The translations under genes were made by a program, and so were the position numbers. A stretch of 46,533 bases of DNA from Bacilli bacterium (GTDB taxonomy: Bacteria > Bacillota_I > Bacilli_A > RF39 > UBA660): contig JAFXOW010000066.1 of the NCBI GenBank assembly GCA_017528315.1, positions 1-46,533 on the forward strand. Reading direction: 5' to 3'. Shown here piece after piece: positions 17,322 to 46,227 of the stretch (its first letter is position 1; each line of letters opens with the position of its first letter). Under the pieces are notes generated by a model, which made no database searches, was not told the origin of the DNA, and saw only the letters and a list, made by a program, of their open reading frames with translations.

Positions 17322-17361
17322 GACCTTGCAACCGAAAATTTGGTTGTAGATGGGGGAATAT

Positions 17362-19113
17362 ATGACAAAAATATTTGTTTTTATGTTTAGTATTATAGCA
17401 TTTATAATTTGTATAAATGTTAAAGCTGAACAATTAGTTATGAATTATTCTGGTAATCCATACTATGTTATTAGTGGTAATGGAAATTATCACTCAAGTA
17501 TTGTTACTTATTTTGACATTAATGGAGAAGTAGCTTATTGTGTTGAACCAGGTATTTTAATAACGGATTTTAATTATTATGAAGAAAGTATTAATACTTT
17601 ACCTTATAATGATAATAAAATTAATTTAATTAAACTTATAGGTTACTATGGATATGAATATCCAAATCATCAAACAAAGGAATTTAGAATGGCTACTCAA
17701 GCTTTAATATGGGAAACTATAAAGGAAGAGAGTGTTGAGTTTTATACTGAAAAAAATGGTGGAGGAAATATAGTTGATGTTTCTAATGAAAGAAATGAAA
17801 TAATGAGACTTGTTAATAACCATTATACCTTACCAGAATTTGGGAATGATTTAATTTTGTCAATTAATCAAGACAATATTTTAATTGATAATAATAATGT
17901 TTTAGCAAACTATGAAATTATTAATAGTAATCGTAACTTAGAAGTTTATAAAGAAGGAAATAATCTACATATTAAAACTAATGAAATAGGTGATTATCAA
18001 ATTACTTTAAGAAAAATAAAATATGATAATAATACGACAAGGTTATTTATTGCTAGTAATGGAGTGAGTCAAAAGTTAATGAAACTTAGGTTTGATGATA
18101 ATGTTGAAACGACTTTAAATATTCATATGGTAGGAGGAAAATTATATTTACAAAAATTGGATTATGAAACTAATACTAATAAAAGCTTAGGAAATAGCAC
18201 GCTTTTAAATGCCAAATATGGTATTTATGATCAATCAAATAATATTATCGAAGAACTAACAACAAATGAATTTGGTGAAAGTGTTAGTAGTTATTTAGCA
18301 TATGGAACATATTATTTAAAAGAAATAACTCCTAGTTATGGATACGAACTAGATTTAAATAAATATGAATTTATAGTAAATAAAGATAATTTAAATATTA
18401 ATCTTAATGTATATGAATCTTTGAAAAAACAAAATATTACTATTATTAAAACTTTAGAAGGTGATTATAGTATATTAAATGGCGAAAATGATATTACTTT
18501 TGAAATTTACTTTAAAAATAACAATTTATTATATCAAACAATTACAACTGATGAATCAGGAGTTACTAAGATAAAATTACCTTATGGAGAATATATATTT
18601 CATCAAGTAAATACTAGTGAGGGTTATTTAACAAGCGATGATTTTATAATTGAAGTTGATGAAAATACAGAAGATGTTTATAAAGTAATATTAGATAAAA
18701 GAGTTTTAGGTAAAATACAAATAATTAAAAGTGATGAAGATACAGGAGTAAGACTTGCTAATGCTTTTATAGAAGTTTATGAAGATGATGATTTAATTTA
18801 TTCAGGATATACCAATGAAGAAGGCTATATAGCATTAAATAATTTATATGTTGGAAGTTATAAAATTATAGAAAAAGAAGCTCCTTCTGGTTATATTATA
18901 AATGATAATGAATATTTAGTTGATATTACAAATGATAAACCTGATATAATAGTAGAAATAAAAAATAAACATGAAGAAGTAATAGTTCCTAATACAAGTT
19001 TAAATGAAAGCAGTAATTTAAAGATTTCTAGTATTGGAATATTCTTTATCGGATTCTTATTAATTTTACTTAGTAAAAAAGATATTCTATTTAATATAAA
19101 AAATAATTTATAA
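17362..19113 (+). CDS. Thioester-domain surface protein with SpaA/Cna-B repeats
   Basis: A secreted, wall-anchored adhesin of 583 residues. A signal peptide covers about 1-22 (IIAFIICINVKA). A thioester domain follows: Cys60 in AYCVEPG and Gln113 in ATQALIWE are the expected pair for an internal Cys-Gln thioester, which lets such proteins bond covalently to host or surface amines. Three Cna-B/SpaA-like beta domains come next (about 255-345, 350-445 and 450-535). The C-terminus is VPNTS (542-546), a hydrophobic helix and a basic tail, a likely variant sortase signal. The ATG at 17362 has GGGGGA 4 bases upstream; the earlier ATG at 17350 is just before this site and is less likely. Confidence 0.87.
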   Translation: MTKIFVFMFSIIAFIICINVKAEQLVMNYSGNPYYVISGNGNYHSSIVTYFDINGEVAYCVEPGILITDFNYYEESINTLPYNDNKINLIKLIGYYGYEYPNHQTKEFRMATQALIWETIKEESVEFYTEKNGGGNIVDVSNERNEIMRLVNNHYTLPEFGNDLILSINQDNILIDNNNVLANYEIINSNRNLEVYKEGNNLHIKTNEIGDYQITLRKIKYDNNTTRLFIASNGVSQKLMKLRFDDNVETTLNIHMVGGKLYLQKLDYETNTNKSLGNSTLLNAKYGIYDQSNNIIEELTTNEFGESVSSYLAYGTYYLKEITPSYGYELDLNKYEFIVNKDNLNINLNVYESLKKQNITIIKTLEGDYSILNGENDITFEIYFKNNNLLYQTITTDESGVTKIKLPYGEYIFHQVNTSEGYLTSDDFIIEVDENTEDVYKVILDKRVLGKIQIIKSDEDTGVRLANAFIEVYEDDDLIYSGYTNEEGYIALNNLYVGSYKIIEKEAPSGYIINDNEYLVDITNDKPDIIVEIKNKHEEVIVPNTSLNESSNLKISSIGIFFIGFLLILLSKKDILFNIKNNL

Positions 19114-21933: not shown

Positions 21934-22470
21934 ATGTCTAGTTATAGAGAAATAGTTACAAAAGCTGTTTTAGGTAAAGGGAAAAAAGTCTTTACAAACA
22001 AACATTTTATTGAAGTTGCTAATATTCCTACAAATGTCCTTGGTTGTTGGGTAATAAATCACAATTTTAAAGGTGAAAAAAATGATAATAATATCACGGT
22101 TACCGGTAGTTATGATATAAATATTTGGTATTCTTATGATAATGATACTAAAACAGATGTTGTAAAAGAAACATTTAATTATAAAGAGTCTGTTAATATT
22201 CGTGAAAAAGATGGAGTCGATTATACTGATGCATCAATTATTGTAAGAAGTTTAAAAGATCCTACTTGTAGTGAAGTATCAATTGATGAAAATAAAATTA
22301 ATTATACAGTTAAAGAAGAAATTGGTATTGAATTAGTGGGAGATACAAAAGTTAAAATTTTAGTTGATGAAGAAACTGATGATTGGGAAGAAATAGTTGA
22401 TGAGAATGAGGCTTTAGATAAAATTGATTCCGAAGTAAATGAAAATTATTTGAAGGATAAAATTAACTGA
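21934..22470 (+). CDS. cotE: Outer spore coat morphogenetic protein CotE
   Basis: CotE directs assembly of the outer spore coat in the mother cell. The 178 residues match from the first codons (SSYREIVTKAVLGKGKK), through NVLGCWVINHNF (about 35-46), YDINIWYSYDNDTKTDVV (about 62-79) and EVSIDENKINYTV, to the acidic C-terminal tail (DEETDDWEEIVDENEALD) that recruits other coat proteins. Length is normal. The ribosome site is GAGGAGG. CotE is largely confined to Bacilli, so it helps place the organism. It stands between the recA and cotE terminators and must have its own promoter in the 67-base gap; none is clear. Confidence 0.95.
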   Translation: MSSYREIVTKAVLGKGKKVFTNKHFIEVANIPTNVLGCWVINHNFKGEKNDNNITVTGSYDINIWYSYDNDTKTDVVKETFNYKESVNIREKDGVDYTDASIIVRSLKDPTCSEVSIDENKINYTVKEEIGIELVGDTKVKILVDEETDDWEEIVDENEALDKIDSEVNENYLKDKIN

Positions 22471-22640: not shown

Positions 22641-22677
22641 AAATAAAGACGAGATTTAAGTTGTCTTTATTTTTTTA
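22641..22677 (+). terminator. Second terminator in the cotE-rel gap
   Basis: AAATAAAGAC (22641-22650) pairs perfectly with GTCTTTATTT (22663-22672), loop 12, followed by T. No protein gene lies between it and the cotE terminator, so it may end a small RNA from 22500-22640 or insulate the RNA region that follows. Confidence 0.65.
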
Positions 22678-22687
22678 TTATAAAGAT

Positions 22688-22710
22688 TGTAAATATTTGT
22701 CAAAGTATTA
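22688..22710 (+). repeat. 23-nt exact repeat, copy 1
   Basis: These 23 bases, with the core TTTGTCAAAGTATTA, recur exactly at 46205-46227. This copy lies 32 bases before the first hairpin of the structured RNA region. The core has a TTGTCA that could be a -35 element. Confidence 0.7.
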
Positions 22711-22741
22711 TTTTTATAGGAGCGTTAGAATTTTCTTTTGG

Positions 22742-23048
22742 TACCTTTCTTTTATAAAAGAAAGGTAAAAATGGATGAAACTGATATTCTTATATCTGAT
22801 ATTAGATATGAGAGGGAAACATTTATCATGATAAATGTTAATTGAATATCCTATAAAACATATTTTATAGGGTAAGGTGCAACTATTGCAATAGTTGCAA
22901 GAATACCAACAATAGATACATATATTGCAGGAAAGATATTTTGTAAGTGTAAAAAGGAGCTTTAAATTCCCAGTAATTTAAAGTAAAAATTTTCATATCT
23001 ACTAGTAGATATAAAAATAACAAATTACATATAAGATATCTTATATGT
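22742..23048 (+). ncRNA. Candidate large structured RNA: nine consecutive hairpins
   Basis: Nine hairpins lie end to end: 22742-22767 (perfect 26-nt palindrome), 22788-22813 (10 bp, one G-U), 22818-22839 (perfect 22), 22847-22874 (12 bp, one G-U), 22878-22899 (perfect 22), 22910-22927 (5 bp), 22959-22984 (10 bp, one G-U), 22995-23012 (perfect 18) and 23027-23048 (perfect 22). Arms differ in sequence, so these are not repeats of one element. Each non-Watson-Crick pair is G-U on the + strand and would be A-C on the other, which indicates a + strand RNA. Centres are mostly 28-34 bases apart. No coding frame is present. The transcript may start near 22710-22725 and run to T-rich sequence near 23130-23150. 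I do not recognise an established RNA family. Confidence 0.6.
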
Positions 23049-23164
23049 GTAATAAATAAAGTTATTAAATTGAATAATACTTAAAGAAGGTGTAGTTTTC
23101 CTGTTGAATTGCAATATATTTATATTATTTTATTTGTTTTTTTAAATCTAATTATAATTATTAA

Positions 23165-23193
23165 TTTACATCTTTTTTTATAAATGATATAAT
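23165..23193 (+). promoter_or_regulatory. Promoter of rel
   Basis: TTTACA (23165-23170) and TATAAT (23188-23193) are 17 bases apart, 17 bases before the rel ATG. Confidence 0.6.
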
Positions 23194-23210: not shown

Positions 23211-25292
23211 ATGGAAAAAATAAGACAAATAATAAATAACATAAAAAAATATTTTGAATTAAATGAACAAGAATTAATTGATACTTATGATTATATTAAA
23301 GATAAATATAGTAAGGAACAACTTGATGAAGTATGTGATACAACTTTAATTTTAACTACTATATATGCTGATATTGAAACTATAATTGCTAGTTTAATTC
23401 ATAAATTATTAATATATGAATTAGTAAATAAGTTTGAACTTGAAAAAAAATATTCTAAGGAAATAAATAAACTGGCAATTGGGGCATGTAAATTATTAAA
23501 ACTTATTTATTCAACTGAGAATGAGTATTTAATTGAATATTATAAAAAAGTAATTGTTGGAATGACAGAAGATGTTAGAGTTATTATGATTAATTTATCA
23601 AGTAGAGTTACTTTAATGCACAATATTTCTAAATATAATAGAGAGAAACAAAAAAGAATAGCTAAGGAATCTTTAGAAATAGTAGCACCTATTGCTCATC
23701 ATTTAGGTATTTATAAGTTAAAAAGTGAATTAGAAGATCTATCATTAAAAGTATTAAAACCAGATGTTTATTATGATATAGTTGAAAAACTTAATAGTAC
23801 CAAAAACGAGAGAGATAATTTAATTTATAAAATGGAAACCGGAGTTAAAGAGATACTTGATAATTACAATATTTCTTATGAAATAAAAGGAAGAAGTAAA
23901 AGTATTTATAGTATTTATAATAAACTTGATAAAGGTCGTAAATTTAATGATATATATGATTTGTTTGCCCTTCGTATTATGGTAGCTGATGAAGCAACTT
24001 GTTATTTGGTTTTAGGATTAATTCATTCTAAATTTAAACCAATTCCAAAAAGATTTAAAGATTTTATTGCTATGCCTAAAAGTAATGGTTATCAGTCACT
24101 TCATACTACGGTTTTTGGTGTTCAAAATACTTTATTTGAAATTCAAATTAGAACTTTTGAAATGAATGAAGTAGCCGAGAATGGATTAGCAGCTCATTGG
24201 TCATATAAAGAGCATCGAAGTGCTGATAAACTTTCTTCTACTGATCAAAAATTAGAATTTTTTAAAACCGTTATTGATCATTATCAAGAAAATGTTGATA
24301 ATAATAATTTTTTGGAATTACAAGATGATAAAATGCATGGGAATATCTATGTTTTTACACCAAAAGGGGATGTCATAGAATTACCATATGGTTCAACTCC
24401 AATAGATTTTGCTTATAAAGTTCATACGAAAGTTGGAGAAGAAATGATAGGATGTGTTGTTAATAATAAAATAGTACCACTTAACTATATTTTAGAAGAT
24501 AACGATGTTGTAAAAATTAATACTAGTAAAGGTAGTACTCCAAAATTATCTTGGTTAAAAATTGCCAAATTAAATCAAACTAAAAATAAAATAAAATCTT
24601 ATTTTAATAGAGAACATAAAGAAGAAATAATTAAATTTGGTGAAGTTACTTTAAATAAATATTTAAAAAGAAAACATTTAATCGAAAAAGAAGTATTAAG
24701 TGATGTAAATTTAAAAAAGATTTTAAAGGAATTAAAATGTAAAGATTTAAATGATTTATTATTAAATATTGGAAATGGTAAATATAGTCCTAAAACCATT
24801 ATTGATATACTTTATCCAAAAGAAAATAATACTTTAAATAAGCAAGTAATAAGTAAAAACAATAATGATATTGAAGTATTAGGAATATCAGATATTAAAG
24901 TGTTGATTGCTTCATGTTGTAATCCAATACCAGGAGATGAGATAGTTGGAGTAATAACTAAAAGTAAAGGAATAACAATTCATAATAAAAATTGTTTGAA
25001 TCTTAAAAATAAAGAAAGATTAATTAAAGTTAATTTTAAGGAATTTACTAAAAATAGTTATCTAACCAAAATTAAAGTTTATACGATAGATAATCATAGT
25101 CATTTAGGAGACTTGATTGGAAAGATCTCTAATAGTGGTATTATAGTTAATAATGTTACTACTAATATAGTTGATTTAAAATATAATTATTTAATTAGTT
25201 TTCATATTAAGAATAAAACAGAATTGGATTATCTAATTAGTAATATTAAAAAGTTAGATTATGTTTTAAATGTAGAAAGGATTATTAAATGA
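23211..25292 (+). CDS. relA: RelA/SpoT family (p)ppGpp synthetase with degenerate hydrolase domain
   Basis: Long RSH proteins make (p)ppGpp from ATP and GTP/GDP on starved ribosomes and usually also degrade it. The synthetase domain looks intact: GRSKSIYSIY (227-236), YDLFALRI, RFKDFIAMPKSNGYQSLHT (281-299) and EIQIRT (310-315). The TGS domain (about 385-450), the Cys zinc-finger/RIS region (ASCCNPIPGDEIVG) and the C-terminal ACT domain (about 620-693) are present. The N-terminal HD hydrolase has lost its metal residues: the HDxxED position reads IHKLLIYE (63-70) and LADR reads LSSR (129-132). Hydrolysis is therefore probably absent. It overlaps dtd by four bases, the usual Bacilli pair. Confidence 0.93.
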   Translation: MEKIRQIINNIKKYFELNEQELIDTYDYIKDKYSKEQLDEVCDTTLILTTIYADIETIIASLIHKLLIYELVNKFELEKKYSKEINKLAIGACKLLKLIYSTENEYLIEYYKKVIVGMTEDVRVIMINLSSRVTLMHNISKYNREKQKRIAKESLEIVAPIAHHLGIYKLKSELEDLSLKVLKPDVYYDIVEKLNSTKNERDNLIYKMETGVKEILDNYNISYEIKGRSKSIYSIYNKLDKGRKFNDIYDLFALRIMVADEATCYLVLGLIHSKFKPIPKRFKDFIAMPKSNGYQSLHTTVFGVQNTLFEIQIRTFEMNEVAENGLAAHWSYKEHRSADKLSSTDQKLEFFKTVIDHYQENVDNNNFLELQDDKMHGNIYVFTPKGDVIELPYGSTPIDFAYKVHTKVGEEMIGCVVNNKIVPLNYILEDNDVVKINTSKGSTPKLSWLKIAKLNQTKNKIKSYFNREHKEEIIKFGEVTLNKYLKRKHLIEKEVLSDVNLKKILKELKCKDLNDLLLNIGNGKYSPKTIIDILYPKENNTLNKQVISKNNNDIEVLGISDIKVLIASCCNPIPGDEIVGVITKSKGITIHNKNCLNLKNKERLIKVNFKEFTKNSYLTKIKVYTIDNHSHLGDLIGKISNSGIIVNNVTTNIVDLKYNYLISFHIKNKTELDYLISNIKKLDYVLNVERIIK

Positions 25293-46204: not shown

Positions 46205-46227
46205 TGTAAATATTTGTCAAAGTATTA
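46205..46227 (+). repeat. 23-nt exact repeat, copy 2
   Basis: Identical to 22688-22710. It lies 66 bases before the ATG of the SipW-type gene. A 14-nt palindrome (TATACATATGTATA, 46250-46263) and GGAGGAG follow. Confidence 0.7.

Follow-up and report, generated by a model that had tools for sequence, protein, structure and literature searches.

Several described classes of mobile element and structured RNA invite comparison with the locus considered here. MITE-like elements, such as BOX, REPIN, and NEMIS, are short, non-coding, hairpin-rich, and scattered in their distribution, and are usually present in many copies. Integron attC cassettes and pdif modules provide a second point of reference, and a third is provided by the ornate RNAs OLE, GOLLD, and ROOL, which are non-coding, hundreds of bases long, rich in hairpins, partly known from Bacillota, and form homo-oligomers (PMC12286853). 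The element examined here, approximately 0.45 kb in length, is intergenic and lies between cotE and rel in an uncultured gut Bacilli bacterium, on an analyzed stretch of 46,533 nucleotides (hereafter the window). That it is real, rare, and structured is near certain. Our preferred reading, held tentatively, is that positions ~22682-23130 form a non-coding palindrome cassette, probably mobile, whose palindromes may act or arise at the DNA level.

On the + strand, cotE is followed by a terminator-like hairpin, ~140 bp of AT-rich sequence, a second terminator-like hairpin, the row of hairpins at 22742-23048, a T-rich tail, and finally rel. The features of the interval are as follows.

21934-22470, + strand: cotE (Pfam CotE)
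22641-22678, + strand: terminator-like hairpin and then a T run, forming the upstream border; 12-pair stem at 22641-22672, T run read in the sequence
22682-22703, no strand: weak left inverted repeat, 22 nt, 73% complementary to 23109-23130; its position appears to match the left terminal repeat of the homologue
22688-22710, + strand: 23-bp motif TGTAAATATTTGTCAAAGTATTA, a possible upstream regulatory site (putative function); second exact copy at 46205-46227
22742-22767, no strand: palindrome 1, 26 bp, perfect
22787-22814, no strand: palindrome 2, imperfect, with G-U pairs on the + strand
22818-22839, no strand: palindrome 3, 22 bp, perfect
22847-22874, no strand: palindrome 4, imperfect
22878-22899, no strand: palindrome 5, 22 bp, perfect; probable counterpart in the homologue
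22925-22946, no strand: hairpin 6, weak
22959-22984, no strand: hairpin 7, stem of 10 pairs, loop of 6 nt
22989-23018, no strand: palindrome 8, perfect 18-bp core at 22995-23012, 30 bp with one mismatch; kept in the homologue
23027-23048, no strand: palindrome 9, 22 bp, perfect; kept in the homologue
23049-23134, + strand: tail, homologous to that of the related element (73% over 140 bp counted from hairpin 8)
23109-23130, no strand: weak right inverted repeat, partner of 22682-22703 (22 nt at 73%), corresponding to a terminus of the homologue
23165-23193, + strand: promoter-like site of rel, TTTACA-17-TATAAT with extended -10, 3' of the palindrome element
23211-25292, + strand: rel (HD, RelA_SpoT, TGS, and ACT domains)

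The hairpin region contains no + strand open reading frame longer than 35 amino acids, in agreement with the first-pass annotation, which had seen no coding frame. Another candidate terminus, the perfect 13-bp inverted pair 22616-22628/23115-23127, was set aside; it consists of A/T only and may be due to chance. Elsewhere in the window, positions 17350-19113 encode a pilus adhesin-type surface protein of 587 amino acids that contains a thioester domain and SpaA repeats.

Nine hairpins at 22742-23048, five of them perfect palindromes of 18-26 nt, with arms unrelated to one another, had been described previously, and all of this was borne out: the perfect palindromes are 26, 22, 22, 18, and 22 nt long, and successive hairpin centers are spaced by 46, 28, 32, 28, 47, 36, 32, and 34. 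Within 307 bp there are four perfect loopless palindromes with a length of 20 bp or more, against a background (2.1 Mb of related sequence) of 1.09 per 100 kb. With the limit lowered to 16 bp, the whole 46.5-kb window has nine, and five of these fall inside this 0.3 kb. The locus is known from a single metagenome assembly, which might suggest chance or an assembly artefact; that explanation is almost certainly wrong, being contradicted by a palindrome density far over background and by a homologue in an independent assembly. Read as DNA, the palindromes are even-centered and loopless, pairing reaches the center in five of them, and every perfect arm of at least 8 in the region flanks an even center. 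Where arms of at least 8 enclose a 4-nt loop, the loop is self-complementary in six of seven cases in the two copies of the element, as opposed to 23 of 259 (9%) in the 2.1-Mb background (P ~3e-6). The innermost bases of a hairpin, whether of RNA or of single-stranded DNA, cannot pair, and selection on the hairpin thus does not explain the palindromic loops. Such centers would be explicable by symmetry at the level of the duplex, by pairing between molecules, or by sister-strand switching during replication.

Both strands of the region fold strongly. The minimum free energy of the + strand has a z-score of -7.2 relative to shuffles, none of which equals it, and the fold of the - strand has a z-score of -8.1; the energies of the hairpins add up to -67.9 kcal/mol on the + strand and -60.9 kcal/mol on the - strand. 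Three wobble pairs (22791/22810, 22849/22872, and 22959/22984) had been taken in the first-pass annotation as a sign of selection for + strand RNA pairing. They are correctly G-U on the + strand, but others had been overlooked, some of them of the opposite sense (A-C on the + strand at 22994/23013, 22859/22862, and 22971/22972). Inside the outermost Watson-Crick pairs there are six G-U and three A-C wobbles on the + strand (binomial P ~0.25), a lean that is mild and not significant; with a - strand that folds equally well, the claim of strand-specific selection is not supported.

These data bear upon the possibility that the element specifies a free-standing + strand structured non-coding RNA, with its start 3' of the 22688-22710 motif and its end in the T-rich tail, whose hairpins would serve to bind a partner or to protect the transcript, possibly during sporulation. 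Strong folding, compensatory changes in the hairpins, and the slight lean of G-U pairs to the + strand are consistent with such a transcript, as are the terminator upstream and the separate rel promoter downstream. The occurrence of the same motif near the promoter of a TasA-like gene adds to the case. This TasA/camelysin-like gene has the second exact copy just 5' of its -35 region, and a paralogue, whose promoter region is almost the same, is preceded by a diverged copy (G000:C66:7926-7946 in the window's genome). The core of the motif, TTTGTCAAA, resembles a Spo0A box, and a Spo0A domain was found in 17 of the 17 genomes of the genus; a Spo0A-box-like motif upstream of the hairpins would fit a regulated + strand transcript. 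Against the RNA stand the palindromic loops, which an RNA does not need, the equal folding of the - strand, a hairpin number that is not kept between copies, the scarcity of conserved unpaired motifs, the lack of an evident -10 box, and the lack of an Rfam match. On balance, we consider the free-standing RNA a serious rival, though less likely than the cassette. A CsrB-like sponge was rejected as a candidate, as GGA occurs in some linkers but is absent from the loops.

Being located 5' of rel and on its strand, the element might instead be a regulatory leader of that gene. However, the near-consensus promoter of rel at 23165-23193, with its extended -10, is located downstream of the hairpins, which are therefore not in the main leader of rel, and the element is absent upstream of rel in other species; a leader function is accordingly very unlikely. 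In several sister species (G014, G008, and G013), the position immediately 5' of rel that the palindromes hold in the window is taken by the gene for a large protein whose N-terminus is TasA-like.

Apart from the window itself, a covariance model of hairpins 6-9 identified a single match in the genus, in the sister species G010 (G010:C3:969-1047, minus strand, E 7.8e-6). The locus there carries a row of loopless palindromes: two perfect ones (22 and 32 bp), a 20-bp one in which a single pair is non-standard, and a copy of hairpin 8. Over 140 bp, starting at hairpin 8 and taking in the whole tail, the two elements align at 73%, and local alignment of a longer region scores 163, compared with a shuffle maximum of 106. 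The 14-nt linker between hairpins 8 and 9 is conserved, few unpaired motifs are otherwise shared, and the hairpins number nine in the window and approximately four in G010. Both genomes are metagenome assemblies, independent of each other. Hairpin 9 reads ACATATAAGATATCTTATATGT in one copy and TCTTACAAGATATCTTGTAAGA in the other, a difference of three two-sided changes with all pairs retained, and hairpin 5 has a probable counterpart with two further two-sided changes. Sliding the partner columns of these two hairpins by one to three leaves far fewer paired cells. The structured character proposed in the first-pass annotation was upheld to this extent, hairpins 5 and 9 of the diverged homologue remaining paired through five two-sided changes without a broken stem pair. 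Five double changes with pairing kept are a suggestion of structural conservation rather than proof, as only two sequences are compared and palindromic DNA would be expected to show the same pattern.

The apparent double changes can also be read in a different way. If sister-strand switching in replication makes or repairs palindromes in an unconstrained stretch, the row would be a product of mutation with no function for the cell, and the loopless centers, the unrelated arms, and the apparent double changes would be accounted for jointly. Such an origin is a serious rival, though the less likely one, in our judgement: apart from the homologue, no other intergenic row was seen in the 2 Mb sampled, so that a general process leaves the concentration at this locus unexplained, and the conservation of the 14-nt linker between hairpins 8 and 9 suggests constraint. 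There is also a slim chance that the element is an RNA gene, itself mobile, with self-complementary hairpins that open up so that one molecule pairs with another to give multivalent homotypic complexes, which would explain the palindromic loops as well as the stems.

The preferred reading, that of a mobile palindrome cassette, draws mostly on the setting of the homologue. The G010 element occupies positions 888-1201 of contig C3, ends in AAATAATATGAGTTT and AAACTCATATTATTT, and has GATT outside both ends. Its terminal inverted repeats are perfect over 15 bp, compared with 22 nt at 73% in the window, and its halves are inverted copies of each other over ~120 columns including flanks (score 89.5, shuffle maximum 60.5). 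The element sits between two converging RelB/YafQ-type toxin-antitoxin operons, and the terminal 15-mer with related tails recurs at the borders of further toxin-antitoxin modules (G010:C3, G016:C22, and G011:C10); one such border, in G016, abuts an amine-oxidase gene lacking its N-terminal part (profile match from position 147 of 443). These border repeats look like a set of mobile cassettes. Mobility of the element is likely, given a non-syntenic homologue with 15-bp terminal inverted repeats, GATT on both sides, inverted halves, and ends found at toxin-antitoxin borders, and the reading as a DNA-level cassette further draws on the occurrence in only two of 17 species, the loopless centers, the pairing kept through five double changes, and the absence of strand preference. 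The palindromes would act or arise as folded DNA, in the form of hairpins, cruciforms, or sister-strand exchange, during replication or movement of the element, and a recombinase or transposase would act on it in trans.

Several further observations were made on these module clusters. In G010:C3:1-4500, G016:C22:3000-8000, and G011:C10:500-3000, clusters of RelB/YafQ- and YoeB-type modules have borders that repeat AAACTCATATTATTT with a related tail of ~60 bp, in the manner of a cassette array. One toxin-antitoxin module is common to two species (96% identity over the 82 bp compared). Nearby on the G010 contig, two perfect palindromes (L263, 4288-4307 and 4344-4361), both containing GCACCTAGGTGC, look like a repeated operator.

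With one copy each in the window's genome and in G010, the element is present in two of the 17 species of the genus, at insertion sites that differ, being the cotE-rel interval in the former and the toxin-antitoxin cluster in the latter. The search of relatives proposed at the outset yielded this one diverged copy, and the locus itself proved not to be conserved. Within the genus, the order of genes near cotE and rel is scrambled: ~4 kb separate the two in G003 and ~7 kb in G012, and elsewhere they are on separate contigs. There is no positional homologue because they are not adjacent in relatives. DNA searches with the island in 38 relatives returned single-hairpin or AT-rich matches only, and a covariance model of hairpins 1-5, discarded after being run over the genus, gave weak matches without a hairpin array. 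No convincing match besides the window's genome was found among 386 genomes of the family and 385 of the order, which are overlapping samples searched with stricter filters that can lose weak matches; one weak match (G385) was rejected, as that sequence has no palindromes and reads as a coding gene. Phages, plasmids, and viral contigs likewise gave no convincing match, and in 400 kb sampled of the window's own genome no second comparable cluster was seen, only one weak AT-rich trio (L128).

Certain points count against the mobile cassette. MITE-like elements are usually numerous, and here there is a single copy per genome; the terminal repeats of the window copy are weak and no target duplication was seen there; neither a recombinase nor a transposase was identified; the arms are unrelated, hence the row is not explained by a repeated protein site; and both genomes are metagenome assemblies.

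Compared with BOX, REPIN, and NEMIS, the element is similarly short, non-coding, hairpin-rich, and scattered, and in G010 it is bounded by terminal inverted repeats and, possibly, by a target duplication of 4 bp; it differs in its copy number, in internal palindromes that are unrelated to one another, in the weak termini of the window copy, and in having no identified source transposase. Cassette arrays with toxin-antitoxin modules (integron attC cassettes, pdif modules) resemble the setting of the G010 copy, which lies among toxin-antitoxin modules whose borders repeat AAACTCATATTATTT. They differ from it in that its border sites face both ways, that inspection by eye revealed neither an attC core nor a dif-like one, and that no integrase was found in the stretches read. 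With OLE, GOLLD, and ROOL it shares a non-coding nature, a length of hundreds of bases, and many hairpins. An Rfam 15 scan at the gathering threshold and at E up to 10 matched none of the three, nor did a scan of the homologue give a match, in accordance with the earlier failure to place the element in a known RNA family. The suggestion of a large ornate RNA was not sustained, in view of palindromic loops, a strand test without significance, an unstable hairpin number, and presence in two species at different loci; moreover, the hairpins stand separately in a row instead of around a multi-branched core. The homo-oligomers of the ornate RNAs are nevertheless the nearest precedent for a self-pairing multivalent RNA (PMC12286853). 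We found no described family to match a dense row of unrelated loopless palindromes whose symmetry is kept under sequence change, which may be the mark of a novel class of mobile non-coding cassette, associated in gut Bacilli with toxin-antitoxin modules, of a novel RNA family, or of a clear natural instance of palindrome formation by replication strand switching.
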